This document shows positions 3,580 through 13,238 of a stretch of DNA of 35,205 bases, piece after piece. The notes beneath the pieces were generated by a model. That model was not told the DNA's origin. It worked only from the letters and a program-made list of their open reading frames with translations, and ran no database searches. How positions within the stretch are numbered: position 1 is the first letter of the stretch; every line of letters begins with the position of its first letter. A program made the position numbers and the translations under genes. The DNA is from Muribaculaceae bacterium (GTDB taxonomy: Bacteria; Bacteroidota; Bacteroidia; Bacteroidales; Muribaculaceae): NCBI GenBank assembly GCA_022510445.1, contig JAFLTN010000012.1:1-35205 (forward strand), in the 5' to 3' direction.

Positions 3580-3609
3580 ATGAAAAGTTCTTTTATCTGA
3601 ACTTTTCAT
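3580..3609 (-). terminator. Hairpin at the 3' end of the HU-LysM gene
   Basis: A perfect 11-bp inverted repeat (ATGAAAAGTTC / GAACTTTTCAT) with an 8-nt loop spans the HU-LysM stop codon at 3593-3595. On the minus strand it is followed by a T-rich stretch (TTCAATTTT), so it may end the HU operon transcript, backed by the second hairpin at 3518-3544. Confidence 0.5.
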
Positions 3610-4615
3610 ATATCTCCATACTTAATTTTTTTGCTTTCTCCAGGTCTTCCTTGTTCTGTGGATTTATTCCATATTTTGAAAGTGGAGGCACCACTATCCT
3701 TGTGCCGGGTTTGATGCGGTCGGGATGTCCTAAAAAACTTTGGTTTTCAAGATAAATGTAGGGCCAGAAATTGAAATTCCCGTAGTGTTCCCTGGCAATT
3801 GTAGTCAGATATCTCGTTGTGGAGACAGTGTCATAGACGGCAGGTGTCGCAGGCGTGTCTGCTTCCGGCTCATCTTGACTTCCCTCCTCCGGTTGTTCTA
3901 TTATTGTATCGGTTTCTACCGGAGTTTGCTTTAATTCAGCCACCTGTATTTCCCTTTCAGGAGAACATTCATCCTGAACGGAACCGAAATTAACCGGCCA
4001 CCATCCGAAGAAGCAGCCCAGCATAAACACTATCAGGCACACCACAAGCGATGTCATGGCACCTGCAAAAAATCCTTGTCTATATTTCACTTTTTCAGAT
4101 TTTATATCCATTGTTGAATCTGTTGACTTCTCATTGTCATTCGCTTCTCCGTAAGCTTCTGCCGTAAAAATGTCATCTTCATTCTCCTCTTCCGAACCGG
4201 CTTCTATTATCGAATTTTCTACCTTATTTTCGTCACTTCTTTCGGTATCAGCCGGAACCTCCTCCTCGATTATGATTTCTTTTTCCGGGCTTTCATCTTC
4301 AAGTTCCACCGATTCAAATATTTCAAATGGTGCATTGATGAGTGAAGCCATCTCTTTGGCCGGTGTGAACACTACTTTACGGTGTCCGGCAAATTCCTGG
4401 CGTTCGCCGGTAGTCACGTTTACTCCGTTGCGGGGTTCTACCTCCACAATTTTAAACGTGCCGAATCCTTTTATCCTTACATTTTCTCCATTTGAAAGGG
4501 CATCTCCCGTCACTTTAAAAAACTCACGGATGAAGTCCTCGCAAAATTTTCTGTTCTTTCCGGAGGTCTCTGACAGTAATGATGCGATCGCTGCTGTTGC
4601 AACTTTATTCTCCAT
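3593..4615 (-). CDS. HU-family DNA-binding domain fused to a membrane helix and a LysM domain
   Basis: The 340-residue protein begins with a full HU/IHF domain (about 1-95: IRIKGFGTFKIVEVE-type core, then RNGVNVTTGE). A very acidic linker follows (about 101-168). One membrane helix lies at about 181-206, preceded by KSEKVKYR, so the N-terminus should face the cytoplasm. A Glu/Pro-rich spacer and a C-terminal LysM-like module follow (about 263-312: TTIAREHYGNFNFWPYIYLE, PGTRIVVPP). The helix would leave HU with the nucleoid and LysM, a glycan-binding fold, in the periplasm. At the DNA-intercalating proline of classic HU I read Val67. It overlaps the upstream HU gene by 11 nt. I know this architecture only as an annotated type in Bacteroidales, without a proven role. 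Confidence 0.85.
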   Translation of the reverse strand: MENKVATAAIASLLSETSGKNRKFCEDFIREFFKVTGDALSNGENVRIKGFGTFKIVEVEPRNGVNVTTGERQEFAGHRKVVFTPAKEMASLINAPFEIFESVELEDESPEKEIIIEEEVPADTERSDENKVENSIIEAGSEEENEDDIFTAEAYGEANDNEKSTDSTMDIKSEKVKYRQGFFAGAMTSLVVCLIVFMLGCFFGWWPVNFGSVQDECSPEREIQVAELKQTPVETDTIIEQPEEGSQDEPEADTPATPAVYDTVSTTRYLTTIAREHYGNFNFWPYIYLENQSFLGHPDRIKPGTRIVVPPLSKYGINPQNKEDLEKAKKLSMEIYEKFR

Positions 4616-4886
4616 CGTTGATTCTTTGTTTTAAGATTGGGGAGGATTTGAATACCATGGTGATGCGTGGAGGCACAAGAAGTTTTTTCCCTGAAGCCGG
4701 ATGCAGCGCTATTCTTTCCTGCCGTTTCCGAGGCTCAAAATTACCGAAACCCGAAATTGATATCGTGTCCATCTCTGCTCCGCAGTTCCCGAAAACCTTT
4801 GACAAGGATTCGATCATCATGTTTACGCTTTCCCTTGAAATGTCAAGCTTGCGGGATATATGGTCTACAATTGTCTTATTATCCAT
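4605..4886 (-). CDS. Small HU-family DNA-binding protein
   Basis: The 93-residue product matches HU length and layout: an N-terminal helical hairpin (MDNKTIVDHISRKLDIS), ISISGFGNFEPRKRQ, then the arm LHPASGKKLLVPPRITMVFK. The arm keeps a proline (HPASG) where HU intercalates into DNA. The frame extends upstream to about 5174, but the HU fold starts at this Met and the extension lies over the divergent SDR gene, so the start at 4886 is chosen. Its last 11 nt overlap the start of the HU-LysM gene in another frame, so translation is probably coupled. The partner suggests a dedicated two-protein DNA-binding unit; chromosome compaction is the family role. Confidence 0.88.
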   Translation of the reverse strand: MDNKTIVDHISRKLDISRESVNMMIESLSKVFGNCGAEMDTISISGFGNFEPRKRQERIALHPASGKKLLVPPRITMVFKSSPILKQRINDGE

Positions 4887-4909
4887 AGGTCGTTTCCGGA
4901 TTTGGTTGA

Positions 4910-4917
4910 CAAAAATA
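4910..4917 (-). promoter_or_regulatory. -7 box (TATTTTTG) for the HU operon
   Basis: Minus-strand TAnnTTTG match about 23 nt upstream of the HU start. It faces away from the SDR -7 box, with 12 bp between the two. Confidence 0.55.
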
Positions 4918-4929
4918 GTTAAATTTCTG

Positions 4930-4937
4930 TAATTTTG
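4930..4937 (+). promoter_or_regulatory. -7 box (TAATTTTG) abutting the SDR start codon
   Basis: Exact TAnnTTTG match with only 4 nt (CATT) before the ATG at 4942. A GTTG/TTGA sequence lies about 21 nt upstream as a weak -33. Transcription should start at or within about 2 nt of the start codon, so the mRNA looks leaderless. Confidence 0.6.
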
Positions 4938-4941
4938 CATT

Positions 4942-6255
4942 ATGAAAGACCAAAAGAGATGCATTTTTCTAACCGGCGCCACCGGAGTAATGGGCTTTGC
5001 GGGATTGCAAGAATTGATGAAATATCCTGAAAAATATGATATTTCAGTGCTTGCAAGACCATCTGGGAAAAATCGAAAAAAACTTAGGCCTTTTATTGAA
5101 AAAGGTCTGAAAGTTCTATGGGGCGATCTCCTGGATAAGGATTGTCTGGAGGAAGGGATAGCTAATGCCGACATTGTGCTTCATGTCGGTGGCATGGTGT
5201 CTCCGGCAGCCGATCATTTCCCTCAGAAGACTCTTCAGGTGAATGTAGGTTCAATGAGGCTTATTGCCTCTATTGTCAGAGATATTGAAAATTCTGATCC
5301 GGGGAGGATAATCACGACGGTCTATATCGGGTCTGTCTCTCAATACGGACCGAAATTGCCTCCCGGTCATTGGGGAGAAGTAGGGGATGTTTTGAAGGCT
5401 GCAAAATTCGATGCATATGCTCTTTCTAAAATTTTGGCGGAAAGAGCCCTCCTTGAAGCCGGTCTTCGAAGGTGGGTGTCTATCCGGCAGACTGCTATCC
5501 TTCATTCCGGATTGCTGACGAAAGCCGGTGATCCGGTCGCTTTTCATGTGCCTTTGAACGGGGTGATAGAATGGATAAGCGTGGAAGACTCCGGACGCCT
5601 CCTTGAAAAAATTTGTCGTGAAGATATCCCGGAAAACTTTTGGAATAATTTTTATAATGTAGGCGGAGGGGAATTTTTCCGGCTGACTAATTATGAATTC
5701 GAGAGGGAGCTTCTGAAGGGGATGGGGTGTCCTCCTCCCGAAAAGATTTTTCAGCCTGAATGGTTTCCAACAGATAATTTTCATGGAATCTGGTTTAAAG
5801 ATTCCAATCTGCTCGACGAATTTTTAAATTACCGGCAGCGTGATTCTTTTGAGATGGCCATGAGAAGATTAAAAAAAGAACTTCCCTTCTATTTTCGACT
5901 CACTCCGTTGGTTCCTGCTTTCGCAATAAAATCACTTATGAAAAAAGTGGTGAATAAGAAGGGACTTGGTGCCATGAGTTGGATAAAGGAGAACAACATA
6001 AAAAGAATCAACGCATCCTGGGGAAGTCTTGAAAATTTCTGGAAAATACCTGATTGGAGGAACCTGTTTCTTGTGAACCCCTCTGAGAGGGATGAAATTT
6101 CCATCAATAATAAATCTTCAGTAATGAATTTGAATAACTCCCTGAGAATGGTGCAATGCTCCCGGGGGCATGAATATCTTTCTTCCCAGGCATTGGAATA
6201 TGGAGGGCATGGTTGTCCTTTTTGCCTGGAGGAAGAAACTGATATCCCGGGATGA
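4942..6255 (+). CDS. NAD(P)-dependent epimerase/dehydratase (extended SDR) with C-terminal Cys/His cluster
   Basis: The 437-residue protein starts with a Rossmann dinucleotide loop, TGATGVMG (residues 11-18). The active-site pattern is Ser131/Ser133, Tyr159 and Lys163 (YALSK), as in extended short-chain dehydrogenases acting on nucleotide-sugars, sterols or similar. About 100 residues past the usual fold the protein ends with C406-x3-H410 ... H423-x-C425-x2-C428, which could bind zinc. Substrate is not predictable; it is probably cytoplasmic. The first ATG is needed for the Rossmann motif, although the -7 box ends 4 nt before it. It is divergent from the HU operon and stands alone before parE, which has its own promoter. 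Confidence 0.85.
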   Translation: MKDQKRCIFLTGATGVMGFAGLQELMKYPEKYDISVLARPSGKNRKKLRPFIEKGLKVLWGDLLDKDCLEEGIANADIVLHVGGMVSPAADHFPQKTLQVNVGSMRLIASIVRDIENSDPGRIITTVYIGSVSQYGPKLPPGHWGEVGDVLKAAKFDAYALSKILAERALLEAGLRRWVSIRQTAILHSGLLTKAGDPVAFHVPLNGVIEWISVEDSGRLLEKICREDIPENFWNNFYNVGGGEFFRLTNYEFERELLKGMGCPPPEKIFQPEWFPTDNFHGIWFKDSNLLDEFLNYRQRDSFEMAMRRLKKELPFYFRLTPLVPAFAIKSLMKKVVNKKGLGAMSWIKENNIKRINASWGSLENFWKIPDWRNLFLVNPSERDEISINNKSSVMNLNNSLRMVQCSRGHEYLSSQALEYGGHGCPFCLEEETDIPG

Positions 6256-6302
6256 TTACTCTTTAGGCTGCGGGTTCTACGGCTCAATTCCAATATTTTT
6301 TG

Positions 6303-6310
6303 TAAATTTG
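6303..6310 (+). promoter_or_regulatory. -7 box (TAAATTTG) for parE
   Basis: Exact consensus 26 nt before the parE start, suggesting a leader of about 22-24 nt and promoter for parE-coaD-protease. Confidence 0.55.
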
Positions 6311-6336
6311 TAAATTCTCCAAGCAATTCTCGGATT

Positions 6337-8412
6337 ATGGATTCCAACGACAGCCTTTTTCAATTTGATTATGATACGGAAAATCAGGATTATTCCCCGG
6401 ATCTTTCCAAGATAGACGCTCCGGCAGAAGAAATCGCTCCGGAAGTGTCCCGGCAAAATGATCTGGAAAATGAAGATGCCGTTTCCGTCTCTTCCGCAGG
6501 TTCCTACGATGATGATTCTATCCAGCATCTTGACTGGAACGAACACATCAGGCGACGTCCGGGTATGTATATCGGCAAACTCGGAGACGGAACACATGCC
6601 GAAGACGGTATTTATGTGCTCGTCAAGGAGGTGATAGATAATTCTATCGACGAATTTAATATGGGCGCCGGCAAGAGAATCGATATCACTTTGACAGAGC
6701 AGGGAGAAGTCACTGTCAGGGATTACGGGCGTGGAATTCCTTTGGGGAAAGTAAAGGAGGTTGCATCTGAAATCAATACCGGAGGAAAGTTTGACGACAA
6801 GAATTTCAAAAAGTCGGTGGGCCTCAACGGTGTTGGTCTGAAAGCTGTTAATGCACTTTCAACTTATTTTCATATTGAAAGTAATCGCGACGGTAAACAG
6901 GTTTCCGTCGATTTCGAAAAGGGAGGGATTGTTAATCAGACTCCACCTAATCCCACTGATCAGGAAAACGGGACTCTGGTAAGGTTTCTCCCGGATAATT
7001 CTTTGTTCCGTGACTATGCTTTCAAAATGGAATTCCTGGAAACGATGGTGAATAATTACACTTATCTTAATTCAGGACTTCAGATTTTTCTGAATGGCAA
7101 GAGATATCTTTCACGTCACGGACTTCTTGACCTTTTAAAGGAAAACCTCACCGCCGAACCTATTTATCCTATTATTCATCTCAAAGGGGAGGATATCGAA
7201 GTGGTTCTCACTCACACAGATCAGTATGGCGAGGAATATTATTCTTTTGTCAACGGTCAGCATACCACCCAGGGAGGCACTCATCTTTCCGCTTTCCGGG
7301 AACATATTGGAAGAACAATTAAGGAATTTTCCGGTAAGGGTTATGAATATGCCGATATTCGTAATGGCATGGTGGCTGCCGTGAGCGTCAGAATTCAGGA
7401 ACCGGTCTTTGAAAGCCAGACTAAAACCAAACTCGGAAGCAAGGAGATTGCGCCGGGGAGTCAGGTCACTGTCAATAAATTCGTGGGCGATTTCATTAAG
7501 AAGGAACTTGATGATTATCTCCATAAGAATCAGGAAGTGGCCGATGCCATGTTGAAGAAGATTGCTCAAAGTGAGAAAGAACGAAAGGCATTAGCCGGTG
7601 TCGCAAAGCTGGCAAGAGAAAAAGCTAAGAAGGTGAGTCTGCACAACCGTAAGCTGAGGGATTGCCGGATTCATTACAACGACTCTGTAAAAAATGCTTC
7701 TAAAGACAACGACCGCCGAGAGGAATCTTCGATTTTTATTACAGAGGGTGATTCCGCTTCAGGAACCATCACTAAGGTAAGGAATGCAGAGACGCAGGCT
7801 GTTTTCTCTTTAAGAGGTAAGCCTTTGAATTCTTTCGGCATGACCCAGGAAGTGGTCTATAAGAATGAGGAATTCAATCTTCTTCAGGCCGCGCTTAACA
7901 TCGAGGAAGGTATTGACGGTTTGCGATATAATAAAATTATCATTGCCACCGATGCGGATGTCGACGGCATGCATATCAGGTTGCTCGTCATCACTTTCTT
8001 CCTTATGTTTTTCCCTGACCTTATTAAGAAAGGCCATGTCTATATCCTTCAGACACCCCTCTTCCGCGTGAGAGACAAAAACTCAACCCGCAGAGGGAAA
8101 GGGAGCAAGGCAAAGAAATCTAATCCGAATGGAGAAAAGGATACGTATTACTGTTACACCGACGAGGAGCGGCTTGAGGCTATTGAGAAATTCGGAAATA
8201 ATGCAGAAATTACCCGTTTTAAAGGGTTAGGTGAAATTAACGATGTGGAATTCGCCGAATTTATCGGACCGGATATGAGGCTCGATCCTGTGACTCTTAA
8301 AAAGGATGACACTGTTGATAAATTGCTCGAATTCTATATGGGTAAAAACACAATGGAGCGTCAGAATTTTATTATAGATAACCTCATAATCGAAGACGAT
8401 TCTGAAATATGA
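6337..8412 (+). CDS. parE: DNA topoisomerase IV subunit B
   Basis: The 691-residue protein has the GHKL ATPase domain ([42 protein letters not shown]), the transducer region, and the TOPRIM domain with [10 protein letters not shown] and [12 protein letters not shown]. It ends with QTPLFRVR and [17 protein letters not shown] is typical of ParE rather than GyrB. With ParC it would decatenate daughter chromosomes. An extra acidic N-terminus of about 62 residues (many D/E) precedes the ATPase core and is longer than in most family members. The stop overlaps the coaD start in ATGA, so the two are coupled. parC is not next to it in this window. Confidence 0.93.
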
Positions 8413-8876
8413 AAGCTTTATACGCCGGAAGTTTCGATCCTTTCACAATCGGTCATCTTTCCATAGTAAATCGTTCTCTTCAGTTATTTGAAAGCCTGGT
8501 TGTCGCGATCGGTTTCAACGAAAATAAGATAGGGGAGTGGAGTGTCGAGGAAAGAAAGAAGGCCATTACCGATTATTTCAGACATAACGAAAGGGTCCAG
8601 GTGGCTGTCTATACCGGTCTCACTGCTGAATTTGCCCGAGAAATCGGTGCCGGCGTAATGATCAGGGGTTTGAGAAACGGGCTGGACTTTGACAAAGAGA
8701 AGGATCTTGCCGACATTAATTTACAGGTGCTCGGAATTCCTACGGTTTTTATCCCATGCGATCCCTCGCTTTCTTATGTCAGCAGTTCTATGGTGCGTGA
8801 ATTGATTCATAACGGATTCGATGCAAGTAAATTTATTGTCGGGAATTTCCCTTTGCAGGATAAAATCTCCCATTGA
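8409..8876 (+). CDS. coaD: Pantetheine-phosphate adenylyltransferase
   Basis: The 155-residue length and motifs fit Coa[14 protein letters not shown] at the start (the nucleotidyltransferase (T/H)xGH signature), [14 protein letters not shown] in the middle, and [11 protein letters not shown] near the end. It makes dephospho-CoA from 4'-phosphopantetheine and ATP, the fourth of five CoA steps. The start overlaps the parE stop by 4 nt, and the S41 protease starts 9 nt after its stop, so all three are probably co-transcribed. The parE-coaD-protease order is, as I recall, common in Bacteroidales. Confidence 0.95.
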
Positions 8877-8885
8877 TAATTAGAT

Positions 8886-10493
8886 ATGATGAAAAAGATA
8901 TTTTTTATATTACCTGTTTTTGCAATTGTCCTCTCGGTATTCGCGCAGAAAACTGAGATGTCTCTCAACCAGAACAATAAGCTAAGGATTGCAGAGGCGG
9001 CTATAATGCAGCTATATGTTGACTCGATTAATGAAACTAAGTTGGTGGAAGATGCGATTAGGGGTATGCTGGAAGGCCTTGACCCTCATTCACAGTATTC
9101 CAATGCCGAGGAAACAAAGGAATTGAATGAACCTTTGGCAGGTAATTTCAGTGGAGTCGGCATCACTTTCAATATGAACAACGATACCCTTTATGTTATC
9201 CAGACAGTAAGCGGAGGCCCGTCGGAAAGGGTGGGTATTCTTGCCGGTGATCGGATCATCACTGTCAATGACACTGTTATAGCCGGTGTCAAAATGAAAA
9301 ACTCCGATATAATGAAACGGTTGCGCGGTCCCAAAGGCACCGACGTGAATGTAAAGGTTCTTCGTCCCGATAAAGGTGTTTATGACACTATTGATTTCAA
9401 GATTACTCGTGCCGATATCCCCATCTATAGCGTTGATGCGGCTTATATGGTTGATGATAAGACCGGTTATATCCGTCTCAACCGGTTCGCGGCTGAAACA
9501 GCGGGAGAAGTCCGCACTGCTCTGAAAGACCTGAAGAAACAAGGCATGGACAGACTCATCCTTGATTTGTCTGACAATGGGGGTGGTTATCTCAACGCGG
9601 CTGTCGAACTTTTGGGAGAATTCCTCGAACCGGGTCAGATTACCGTTTATACCGAGGGTCTGAATTCACCCAGAATGGATAATTACGCTTCACCCAACGG
9701 GTCGAAGCCATTGTTTGCAGATGGGAGGCTTGTAGTGATGGTTAACCAGTATTCAGCCTCTGCTTCTGAAATCACCAGCGGTGCTGTTCAAGACTGGGAC
9801 AGGGGTCTGATTGTTGGTCGCCGGACTTTTGGCAAAGGTCTGGTCCAGCGCCCGATTCCGCTCCCTGACGGTTCTATGATCAGATTGACCGTGGCCCATT
9901 ATTATACTCCCACAGGGCGCGATATTCAAAAACCTTATGAAAAGGGTAACAGAAAAGCATATAGCGAGGATATGATCGACAGATTCAACAACGGAGAGCT
10001 TATGCATGCCGATTCGATTCATTTTGCAGATTCTCTGAAGGTTGAAACTCTTAGACTCCATCGGCCGATTTATGGAGGCGGTGGAATTTATCCTGATAAG
10101 TTTGTGGCTCTCGACACCACGGAGTTCACCAAATATTATAGAAATGTTATGGCAAAAGGCCTCATAAACCGCTTTGCAATTAGTTATGTTGATAAAAACC
10201 GTCAGGAACTCAAAAAGCTTTACAAGAACGACAATGCCTTTAATAAAGAATTCAAAGTTTCTCCGGAAATGCTTCAGGAATTATACAGCCTCGCTGATAA
10301 GGAGGGAATAGAATTCAACGAGGAGGAAGCCAAGACAAGCGAACCTTTATTTGCCATGCTTATCAAGGCCCTCATTGGAAGGGATGTTTTCGACAATTCA
10401 ACCTATTTTAAGGTATTTAATGACCATGACCCGATATTCCGGGAAGCTTACCGTCTGATAAATTCAACAGAATATGATGATTTGCTCCCTTAG
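8886..10493 (+). CDS. S41-family C-terminal processing peptidase
   Basis: The 535-residue protein has a signal peptide (MMKKIFFILPVFAIVLSVFA), a PDZ domain (about 85-170: GVGITFNMNNDTLYVIQTV, GGPSERVGILAGDRI), and the S41 core. QYSASASEITSGAV and GRRTFGKGLVQ carry the Ser/Lys pair, Ser292 and Lys317, 25 residues apart as in Prc/CtpA. YIRLNRFA and LDLSDNGGGYLNAAV are also typical. It should act in the periplasm, cutting proteins near their C-termini; targets are unknown. A helical tail of about 110 residues ends it. It is the last gene of the parE-coaD operon. Symbol left blank because several paralogues are usual in this group. Confidence 0.92.
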   Translation: MMKKIFFILPVFAIVLSVFAQKTEMSLNQNNKLRIAEAAIMQLYVDSINETKLVEDAIRGMLEGLDPHSQYSNAEETKELNEPLAGNFSGVGITFNMNNDTLYVIQTVSGGPSERVGILAGDRIITVNDTVIAGVKMKNSDIMKRLRGPKGTDVNVKVLRPDKGVYDTIDFKITRADIPIYSVDAAYMVDDKTGYIRLNRFAAETAGEVRTALKDLKKQGMDRLILDLSDNGGGYLNAAVELLGEFLEPGQITVYTEGLNSPRMDNYASPNGSKPLFADGRLVVMVNQYSASASEITSGAVQDWDRGLIVGRRTFGKGLVQRPIPLPDGSMIRLTVAHYYTPTGRDIQKPYEKGNRKAYSEDMIDRFNNGELMHADSIHFADSLKVETLRLHRPIYGGGGIYPDKFVALDTTEFTKYYRNVMAKGLINRFAISYVDKNRQELKKLYKNDNAFNKEFKVSPEMLQELYSLADKEGIEFNEEEAKTSEPLFAMLIKALIGRDVFDNSTYFKVFNDHDPIFREAYRLINSTEYDDLLP

Positions 10494-10563
10494 ATCCTCG
10501 CGCAAAAAAATGTAAAACGCAAGGATAATATCTTTTAATTAAATTTAGACAAATTCAAAAATC

Positions 10564-12099
10564 ATGAACCTATTTTCTTACCTTATTTTTGCTGCCATTT
10601 CTGCTTCGCCTCTTTTCACTTTGGCACAGCAGGAAACAGAAAACAGCTTCCTGCAGGATATCGAATTGCTGACAGTGGAGGATCTTGCCCTTGTGGAAGA
10701 TTCCTTGGCTGCGGTCAAGGAGATTCAAGTGGCCGAACCGGAGGATCTCTTCCTTTCCCTGCCTAAACCTGTTGTTAACAGAAAAATCGTTAACAGAAGT
10801 TTTATCCCCAGGGTCTTCTCCGGTTATAGGAAACTTCATAAGTTCCATCCCGATTTTCTTCATCCCAATCATTACGACGGTTTGAGCGTCATGACTTATG
10901 ATTCCACCCTCATGATGGTCGATGAGGTTATTGAAGTCCTTCCGAATGAAAATGAGTCAATGTTCCCCGACCTGACTTATCTCATTTCACGTGAAGAGGA
11001 GGTTGTGGAAGTGCCGGTGCCCACCGATAAACCCGAAAATGTTATAATCATCGGAGAAATGCCTCATTGGCTGTCTCAGGCATTGACAACTAATCGCGTG
11101 CAGGAAGATCTGCTATATTCTTATCTGATTGATAACCCCGAATCTATTGAATATTCTTATTGGGATCTTCCCGAACCTCCCGAACTCCCTGATGATGACG
11201 TTCGGTTCATCACTTATATCCGGCGACTGAATCTGCCGGATGTCGATCCGGAGGCTGTTATTATTCCCGCCACCGAAATAAAAAGAAAATATTGGCTCCA
11301 CAAAGTGGGAGCTCAGCTCCAGTTCTCTCAGGCTTTCGTTTCTCCTAACTGGTATCAGGGCGGTAACAATTATCTTGCCCTCCTTTTCAATTTTGACTGG
11401 AATGTGCAGCTGAATCAGGTTTTTCATCCCAATTTATTGTTCCAGAGCAATCTTTCCTATAAGCTTGCTTTAAGCTCAAACCCTAAAGGGAATTTGCATA
11501 AATACACAATTTCAGAAGATGCTCTCCAATATAATCTGAATGTCGGTCTTAAGGCTTTCGGCAATTGGTATTATTCTTATAATTTGCTTTTCAAGACCCA
11601 GCTGCTTAATAACTATGAGGATAATTCAATGGTGAGAACAGCTTCTTTCCTCTCTCCGGGCGACCTCAATATGGGTCTTGGTATGGCATATAACCATCAG
11701 AACAAGCTCAAGACTTTCAAATACACGCTGACCATTTCTCCTCTCTCTTACAACCTTAAGACTTGTATAAGCGACAAGATCAACCATGAGATCTATAATA
11801 TTTCTCCTAACAGAAAGGTAAGAAATGAGATCGGTAGCAACCTTGAATTTAACATGGACTGGAGTATTACAGCCAACATTAGCTACAAAACAAGACTCTT
11901 CCTCTTCTCTGACTATCATTATTTCCTCAGCGATTGGCAGAATACTTTCTCATTTGATATTAACAAATTCCTTTCAACCCAGATTTTCCTTCATATGCGC
12001 TATGACACTTCTGCCGATAAAAACACCGGTTGGAAAACTTTCATGATGCGTGAGATTCTAAGCTTCGGTCTTTCATATACATTCTCTACCAAACCATAA
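10564..12099 (+). CDS. DUF3078-family outer-membrane beta-barrel protein
   Basis: The 511 residues open with a signal peptide (FAAISASPLFTLAQ). A low-complexity, acidic and proline-rich region of about 230 residues follows, then a beta-barrel region from about 240. There W-YQGGNNYLALLFNF, alternating hydrophobic strands and a final aromatic strand (LSFGLSYTFSTKP) point to the DUF3078 family of Bacteroidetes outer-membrane proteins. Function is unknown. It heads a run of envelope genes at 6- and 10-nt spacing. A near-match box, TAAATTTA, lies about 25 nt upstream. The barrel assignment is from motif memory; strand number cannot be counted safely by eye. Confidence 0.8.
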   Translation: MNLFSYLIFAAISASPLFTLAQQETENSFLQDIELLTVEDLALVEDSLAAVKEIQVAEPEDLFLSLPKPVVNRKIVNRSFIPRVFSGYRKLHKFHPDFLHPNHYDGLSVMTYDSTLMMVDEVIEVLPNENESMFPDLTYLISREEEVVEVPVPTDKPENVIIIGEMPHWLSQALTTNRVQEDLLYSYLIDNPESIEYSYWDLPEPPELPDDDVRFITYIRRLNLPDVDPEAVIIPATEIKRKYWLHKVGAQLQFSQAFVSPNWYQGGNNYLALLFNFDWNVQLNQVFHPNLLFQSNLSYKLALSSNPKGNLHKYTISEDALQYNLNVGLKAFGNWYYSYNLLFKTQLLNNYEDNSMVRTASFLSPGDLNMGLGMAYNHQNKLKTFKYTLTISPLSYNLKTCISDKINHEIYNISPNRKVRNEIGSNLEFNMDWSITANISYKTRLFLFSDYHYFLSDWQNTFSFDINKFLSTQIFLHMRYDTSADKNTGWKTFMMREILSFGLSYTFSTKP

Positions 12100-12104
12100 G
12101 ACGA

Positions 12105-12710
12105 ATGTTTATCAGGGAATTTATTTTTCTGGCTCTATCCTTGCTACCGGTGTCGTTATCGGCAGCCACGCCTAAAGTGGCCTTCGATATGGATGAAGCC
12201 AGGGACATTTGCGATAATCTTCCCTTGGAAAACATTGAAGGAATATGGATCTATCCGGATGACAAGGTCACAGTCTTGATTCTTAACGATGGCGACGGGC
12301 TCTCTTCCCACTCTATCCCCAATTACAGGATCTCAGTGGTGGAGAGTTCCGACACAAGGCTCAATCCGGGTGAAACTATCGGTTTCCTCAAGGCTTCTCC
12401 GGAATCGAAGACTTATAGTATTGAATTGGCCACTGAGAGAAAAAACGAACTTCTCTTGAAACCAAAATCCTGTCTGGCCACTTTGTCGGCCGATGGAGAT
12501 TCCTTTATCATTAAGAAACAGAAGTCAGGCCTTAAAGGTCGGCTTAATCTGAATCTTAACAGATTGCTTCCGGGTTTCTGGAAAATTGTAAGTCTCGGTG
12601 TCTCAGGCAATGGAATGGCCAATCGTCTTGAAGCACCGGCCGGCATGATAAAGATCTATCCTTCTTATGACGGCAACGGATCTTCGCGCAGAAAACCACG
12701 GTATCTTTGA
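12105..12710 (+). CDS. Small exported protein of unknown function
   Basis: The 201 residues carry a clear signal peptide (MFIREFIFLALSLLPVSLSAA). The mature part is about 180 residues, rich in beta-type segments, with IEGIWIYPDDKVTVLILND, SIPNYRISVVESSDTRLNPGE and a basic tail GSSRRKPRYL. I do not recognise a family. It begins 6 nt after the DUF3078 stop and ends 10 nt before the next exported protein, so it is almost certainly part of this envelope operon. Codon use resembles its neighbours. It is probably periplasmic or outer-membrane associated. Confidence 0.75.
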   Translation: MFIREFIFLALSLLPVSLSAATPKVAFDMDEARDICDNLPLENIEGIWIYPDDKVTVLILNDGDGLSSHSIPNYRISVVESSDTRLNPGETIGFLKASPESKTYSIELATERKNELLLKPKSCLATLSADGDSFIIKKQKSGLKGRLNLNLNRLLPGFWKIVSLGVSGNGMANRLEAPAGMIKIYPSYDGNGSSRRKPRYL

Positions 12711-12719
12711 TCGGCTATT

Positions 12720-13238
12720 ATGAAAAGATCATCCGTTCTTCTGATTCTGTTGCTTGTTGCCTTTACCGGCTCAATCACCCTCTCGGCTAAAAAGATTAAA
12801 AGCACTTTCAGAATCGAGAAGGAGAATATAAAGAATAAAGACAATGTTAAAGCTGCAGAATCCGACATCAGATTCGATTTACAGGATACCGAATCACCGG
12901 ATTCTCTTAAACACTTCTTTTCTGAAATCTCTTTTGCCGGTTATGAAAAGGAGATCTCGTCGTCAGTTGAATCTTTTTTAGTGATCAACGGATCTGATAA
13001 GGATCTGTCTGCAATTACAGTGAGGATTGATTATTTCGATTTGCAGGGACGTATGATTCATTCACGTGATTACACGGTAAGATCGGTAGTTCCTGCAGGC
13101 CAGACGCGAAAAATCGATATACCTTCCTGGGACCGCCAGCGCACATATTACTATTATCTCGGCAACGAACCTAAAAAGGTTGCTACCCCATATAAGGTTA
13201 CAATCACCCCGGTCACTTATTGGCAACCCGCAGAATAA
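12720..13238 (+). CDS. Small exported protein with an Ig-like/FxLYD-type domain
   Basis: The 172-residue protein has an N-terminal signal segment (SSVLLILLLVAFTGSITLSA) and a charged linker. From about residue 60 a beta-sandwich-like stretch follows: VESFLVINGSDKDLSAITVRI, YFDLQGRMIHSRDYTV, VPAGQTRKIDIPSW. This rhythm (solvent-exposed NGS.., then DLQGRMI, then VPAGQT) recalls FxLYD-type domains, but I cannot name the family with certainty. The end holds many tyrosines (RTYYYYLG). It follows the previous gene by 10 nt in the envelope operon. Confidence 0.72.
   Translation: MKRSSVLLILLLVAFTGSITLSAKKIKSTFRIEKENIKNKDNVKAAESDIRFDLQDTESPDSLKHFFSEISFAGYEKEISSSVESFLVINGSDKDLSAITVRIDYFDLQGRMIHSRDYTVRSVVPAGQTRKIDIPSWDRQRTYYYYLGNEPKKVATPYKVTITPVTYWQPAE

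Follow-up and report, generated by a model that had tools for sequence, protein, structure and literature searches.

The window, by which we mean the whole stretch of 35,205 nucleotides that was analysed, carries on its minus strand two overlapping genes that each encode an HU-fold protein. One product is a small soluble protein (small HU), and the other (HU-LysM) combines an HU domain with a predicted transmembrane helix and a LysM-like module. The features of the pair, in the direction of reading, are as follows.

4605..4886, minus strand: small HU, 93 amino acids, soluble, with the arm EPRKRQERIALHPASGKKLLVPPRITMV (net +5, with proline); PF00216, E = 4.6e-18.
4605..4615, minus strand: 11-base overlap between the small HU stop and the HU-LysM start (ATGGAGAATAA), read from the sequence.
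3593..4615, minus strand: HU-TM-LysM protein, 340 amino acids, ATG start, open reading frame read from the window sequence.
4331..4615, minus strand: HU domain, residues 1-95, with the arm KIVEVEPRNGVNVTTGERQEFAGHRKVV (net +1) and V67 at the proline position; profile and structure matches.
4100..4330, minus strand: post-HU motif PFEIFESVEL and acidic linker, residues 96-172, net -24 by charge count.
3998..4075, minus strand: predicted transmembrane helix, residues 181-206; hydropathy and flank charges.
3851..3997, minus strand: acidic Glu/Pro spacer, residues 207-255, net -12 by charge count, predicted periplasmic.
3683..3850, minus strand: Kbp-type LysM-like module, residues 256-311; profile matches.
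3596..3682, minus strand: basic C-terminal tail, residues 312-340, net +2; alignments and charge count.

Both proteins passed the cut-off of the HU/IHF superfamily profile PF00216 (22.4 bits), with 70.7 bits for HU-LysM (residues 9-94, E = 1.3e-19) and 65.7 bits for small HU. IHF was the best solved-structure match of both (E = 2.1e-14 for the HU domain of HU-LysM), and neither exceeded 56.2 bits against the IHF equivalogs TIGR00987, TIGR00988, NF001401 and NF001222, whose cut-offs are 111 to 120.25. A Pfam scan of the window HU-LysM returned no further domain above cut-off. N94, F97 and F100 were invariant in a 49-row alignment of relatives, and the linker was net negative in all rows of a 127-row set (median -30). 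The succession of HU fold, acidic linker, helix at residues 181-206, Glu/Pro spacer and LysM-like module is the one read by the initial annotation; its coordinates are correct, bit scores, charges and profiles agree with it, and on this sequence evidence the architecture is real. The initial annotation mentioned neither the overlapping small HU gene at 4605-4886 nor the basic C-terminal tail of HU-LysM.

The best Kyte-Doolittle mean over 19 residues in HU-LysM was 2.38, a value that 15 of 10000 shuffled versions of the sequence also reached, and a hydrophobic stretch of at least 1.6 was present in 57 of 58 relatives and in 125 of the 127 rows of the larger set; the two rows that lack it (L030 and L106) are both copies. 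These results rule out a chance helix, and by hydropathy the membrane helix first read from the window protein is found in it and across its relatives. The helix has three K/R residues in its N flank and none in its C flank. Furthermore, K/R residues were more numerous on the N side in 117 of the 127 rows, fewer in 4 and equal in 6. This bias agrees with the positive-inside topology put forward at the outset, in which the HU domain is cytoplasmic and the LysM-like module periplasmic, and we infer that HU-LysM has a single helix with a predicted N-in/C-out orientation.

The C-terminal part of HU-LysM matched E. coli Kbp as a single sequence (E = 9.9e-6), while the family profile of the LysM end matched Kbp with an E-value of 1.1e-9 and a phage tail LysM protein (9g8s) with an E-value of 7.3e-7. 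Nine of the 15 invariant columns of the 49-row alignment fall within this module (L270, G279, W284, I287, Y288, N291, P298, G304 and P310). The Pfam LysM profile PF01476 gave no match to the window protein and matched only 4 of 31 HU-LysM members at E<=1. The LysM of the initial annotation was thus upheld as similarity to a LysM of known structure but missed by the Pfam family. The LysM of Kbp (YgaU) is of the same subtype as the HU-LysM end; Kbp consists of BON and LysM without HU or helix, whereas HU-LysM has both HU and helix. Because the closest profile kin are Kbp and phage tail/baseplate LysM chains, peptidoglycan binding should not be assumed, and the LysM assignment appears good as a fold by profile and weak with regard to peptidoglycan.

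Small HU and HU-LysM stood side by side in 125 of the 130 loci examined, 10 of which are copies or near-copies. HU-LysM was alone at two loci, L128 (at a contig edge) and L028 (genome G079), the latter without any HU frame in the upstream stretch that was read, and three loci (L019, L110 and L123) had no callable HU-LysM. Among the 80 named loci, which are the best 80 of 351 stretches encoding a relative, 78 had an upstream small HU frame, the misses (L123 and L128) being contig edges; the same frame was present in 20 of 20 loci from f2/f3 (same order) and f25 (another class). At L147 (G542), small HU accompanies a partner of HU-LysM length whose LysM end is unseen by the profile. With HU-LysM starts picked close to the aligned start, the start and stop overlapped in 48 of the 74 relatives measured (spacing of -11 in 20, -8 in 15, -4 in 9 and -1 in 4), and the other 26 were separated by +2 to +264. 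An overlap of 4, 8 or 11 bases was present at 15 of 16 f25 loci, and two of the four f2/f3 loci overlapped. This gene layout is solid across the sequences compared. Subunits of one complex are commonly encoded by genes coupled in this way, and HU-fold proteins act as dimers. A conserved, overlapping pair of genes for such proteins therefore suggests that small HU and the anchored HU would form a heterodimer of the IHF type, kept at the membrane. IhfA and IhfB are likewise two different HU-fold subunits; IHF is soluble and carries the arm proline in both, whereas HU-LysM is a predicted membrane protein.

Of the 149 genomes of the family, 116 matched a profile of the LysM end, our own included (97 of 109 good-quality genomes and 29 of 30 genera). 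Each of these 116 had one match; that of G131 is weak and lies in a 969-aa frame. With the whole protein as query, 148 of 149 matched, HU-only matches included. The recurrence of the LysM end rules out a chance ORF. Genus g9 had a good HU-LysM in none of its nine genomes and one weak match in a 969-aa frame; PF18174 was present in 9 of 9, and HU-LysM has been lost or has diverged there. In a sample of 395 genomes of the phylum, the matches listed comprised all five other genomes of the order, with frames of 361-471 aa (in one, G542, the LysM part was not recognised by the profile), at least 39 of 45 f25 genomes with a frame of 340-584 aa, and weaker matches only in the other six; among these listed matches, families of the same class outside the order had short frames only and no HU-LysM. 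HU and LysM profiles both matched at 16 of 16 fetched f25 loci. Named relatives belong to Muribaculaceae, Barnesiella, Coprobacter (among them Coprobacter secundus, L138, a culturable gut commensal with the pair) and other Bacteroidales MAGs. HU-LysM thus recurs within the family and the order, and also in a single family from another class, and by sequence comparison the architecture noticed in a single protein is conserved, not a product of chance.

A search for known kin revealed that the closest kind is the HU-CCDC81_bac_1/bac_2-SPOR type of Bacteroidota (PF18174, PF18175, PF05036). It shares N-terminal HU folds (6 of 6 scanned), a hydrophobic stretch after them and, in 5 of 6, a C-terminal module of the envelope type, here SPOR. 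It differs in that two short HU folds (59 and 70 positions) of other Pfam families lie in one chain with a SPOR end, whereas the HU-LysM pair consists of two overlapping genes with PF00216-type folds, usually with arms, and a LysM-like end. PF18174 was present in 135 of the 149 same-family genomes and in 89 of the 395 phylum genomes (75 above cut-off), and was not found in our own draft genome (89.5% complete). Neither PF18174 nor PF18175 nor SPOR matched the window HU-LysM at E<=10, which rules it out as a member. In the work of Burroughs et al. 2017 on the HU superfamily, chromosome partition is said to have been proposed for the HU-CCDC81-SPOR type. The initial annotation knew of no characterised protein that anchors DNA to the wall or signals wall state to DNA; a search of open-licence papers found nothing by title on the HU-LysM architecture, in keeping with this, but HU-HU-SPOR proteins built on the same logic are already in Pfam. 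The genome also encodes a separate canonical HU (105.5 bits), which rules out the pair as the housekeeping HU and means that it is not the sole HU of the cell. A further HU gene is present there as a fragment at a contig edge (G000:C90:32922-33032).

The two arms of the pair differ. The window HU-LysM arm has V where the canonical HU of the same cell has proline, the residue that intercalates into DNA in IHF and HU, and its net charge is +1; the small HU arm is basic and keeps the proline. Among f1-type rows with an arm, small HU has the proline on an arm of net +3 to +6 (mean +4.62). The mean for the anchored arm is +0.85, and all 90 of these rows have V or I at its proline position. The four f2/f3 rows all show V or E there, and the 16 f25 rows all show P; in f25 both subunits have the proline, and the net charges of the partner arm span +1 to +7. 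Mean anchored arm charge lay between -1 and +0.85 in every group. In the f25 partners (L148-L163), the usual arm motif P-x-T/S-G is replaced by a conserved N/S-P-H-Y/H. Since the anchored arm is near neutral without proline and the partner arm is basic with proline, the membrane subunit of the pair looks the less suited to DNA binding in the window's lineage.

Furthermore, 17 of 127 rows (14 of 115 without copies) have an anchored arm of 5-12 residues instead of 28, namely L013, L014, L017, L018, L020-L023, L025, L026, L029, L031, L114, L125, L135, L136 and L141, rows that keep the hydrophobic stretch and the LysM. The partner proline was absent in 16 of these 17 rows (the exception being L023) versus none of the 108 armed rows with a partner, and the partner arm averaged -1.06 (net -4 to +2). 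In a tree of the 115 rows left after removal of 10 copies, built with the arm columns left out, the 14 armless rows formed one clade (SH-aLRT 86, unstarred; some long branches), so that the joint loss of arm and proline counts as a single event. Statistical coevolution of the two arms, with only one independent event, was set aside and kept as suggestive; the joint change would fit a working pair. A drift of the armless HU toward the CCDC81/HU-HIG profiles was also dropped, as armed L152 scored higher, above the HU-HIG cut-off, and armless L013 and L114 matched below cut-off. This loss in one clade is beyond the reach of a single-sequence view such as that of the initial annotation.

By Pfam, L144 has an FtsY-type GTPase and a radical SAM/TRAM protein (presumably RimO-like) upstream of small HU, and downstream of HU-LysM an unclassified frame, a MoxR-type ATPase, DUF58, a BatD-like protein (below cut-off), two BatA/VWA proteins and a TPR protein. 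Among the loci printed, the FtsY-type and radical SAM/TRAM genes recur in four f2/f3 loci and in L131; elsewhere the pair stands without them, which indicates that the pair itself is the unit. The first three genes downstream include one of the MoxR cluster at all four f2/f3 loci and at 20 of the 74 f1-type loci with a downstream gene, but not at the other 54 or at any of the 16 f25 loci; 6 of the 100 loci surveyed ran into a contig end. Papers on Bat and MoxR genes connect them with aerotolerance and oxidative stress. The parE neighborhood was dropped as a clue: of the 80 named loci, 8 have parE close to the pair and 9 have ctp to g12720 there. In the close relatives L064-L071 and L077, the block ctp-DUF3078-g12105-g12720 is followed by the pair on the same strand. 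The window (3593-13238) has the pair on the other side of this block and inverted, through a local rearrangement or as an assembly effect.

Both HU folds, the gene overlap, the pairing across two classes, the hydrophobic stretch, the charge bias and the LysM-like match can be brought together in one model, to which we give a little less than even confidence: small HU and HU-LysM would make up one membrane-held complex that loosely tethers chromosomal DNA to the wall. Small HU and the HU domain of HU-LysM would pair as an asymmetric IHF-like heterodimer, kept at the inner membrane by the helix, and the LysM-like module would extend into the periplasm, where it probably grips peptidoglycan. Most of the DNA contact would come from small HU, so that in the window's organism the attachment of chromosomal DNA to the wall would be a loose one, and DNA binding would be limited or gated by the long acidic linker. 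The constancy of the pair (125/130), its overlap (48/74), the joint arm/proline change (a single event), the N-in bias and the Kbp match (1.1e-9) favor the model. Counted against it are an anchored HU without proline next to a strongly acidic linker, the locus without a partner frame (L028), the 26 non-overlapping relatives, the failure of Pfam LysM on the window protein, the unseen LysM of L147 and the lack of a good HU-LysM in g9. We consider such a tether plausible in the window's organism. Rather less likely is the wider claim that the two genes encode a divided HU heterodimer, coupled in translation, which anchors the nucleoid to peptidoglycan across the inner membrane as a conserved two-gene unit in Bacteroidales and a second class.

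The serious rival is an envelope scaffold without a DNA tether, in which the HU folds would serve for protein dimerisation, as is reportedly proposed for CCDC81-type HU folds, with DNA contact secondary or lost. The armless clade, which keeps stretch, LysM and pair without canonical DNA arms, indicates that the pair can persist without them and counts against DNA tethering as its sole role; the near-neutral mean charge of the anchored arm in all groups points the same way. However, armed rows invariably retain the partner proline (108/108) on a basic arm, f25 has proline in both subunits (16/16), and similarity to CCDC81_bac_2/HU-HIG does not set the armless rows apart; we rate this scaffold as rather unlikely. 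Signalling from envelope to DNA, whereby wall or membrane stress sensed outside would free or activate the HU pair and alter DNA structure or transcription, appears improbable: the MoxR-cluster gene that accompanies every f2/f3 locus and the MoxR-Bat series of L144 speak for it, but most f1-type and all f25 loci have no such gene within three genes downstream, and the window HU-LysM has no extra Pfam domain above cut-off. We rate as quite improbable that the LysM-like module binds another ligand or protein instead of peptidoglycan and that HU-LysM is simply a membrane HU; its best matches, a potassium binding protein (Kbp) and a phage tail protein, and the poor recognition by Pfam LysM would suit this, whereas the concentration of invariant columns in the module and the C-terminal SPOR of most related HU-CCDC81 proteins argue otherwise. 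Least probable is a mobile-element or defence role, which has reportedly been proposed for other Bacteroidota HU expansions. HU-LysM occurs as one match per positive genome, and the identified neighbors of the pair are housekeeping or envelope genes; on the other side, a 2017 paper on HU names, in its title, biologic conflicts as well as chromosome partitioning.

How the chromosome is held or moved relative to the wall is open in many lineages. If the tether model is right, this two-gene unit would offer a simple, deletable chromosome-wall candidate in common gut bacteria, and the armless clade would serve as a natural test, with its control built in, of whether DNA contact is the purpose of the pair. 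The pair may thus fasten DNA, or at least a protein of the DNA-packaging type, to the cell envelope in gut Bacteroidales.
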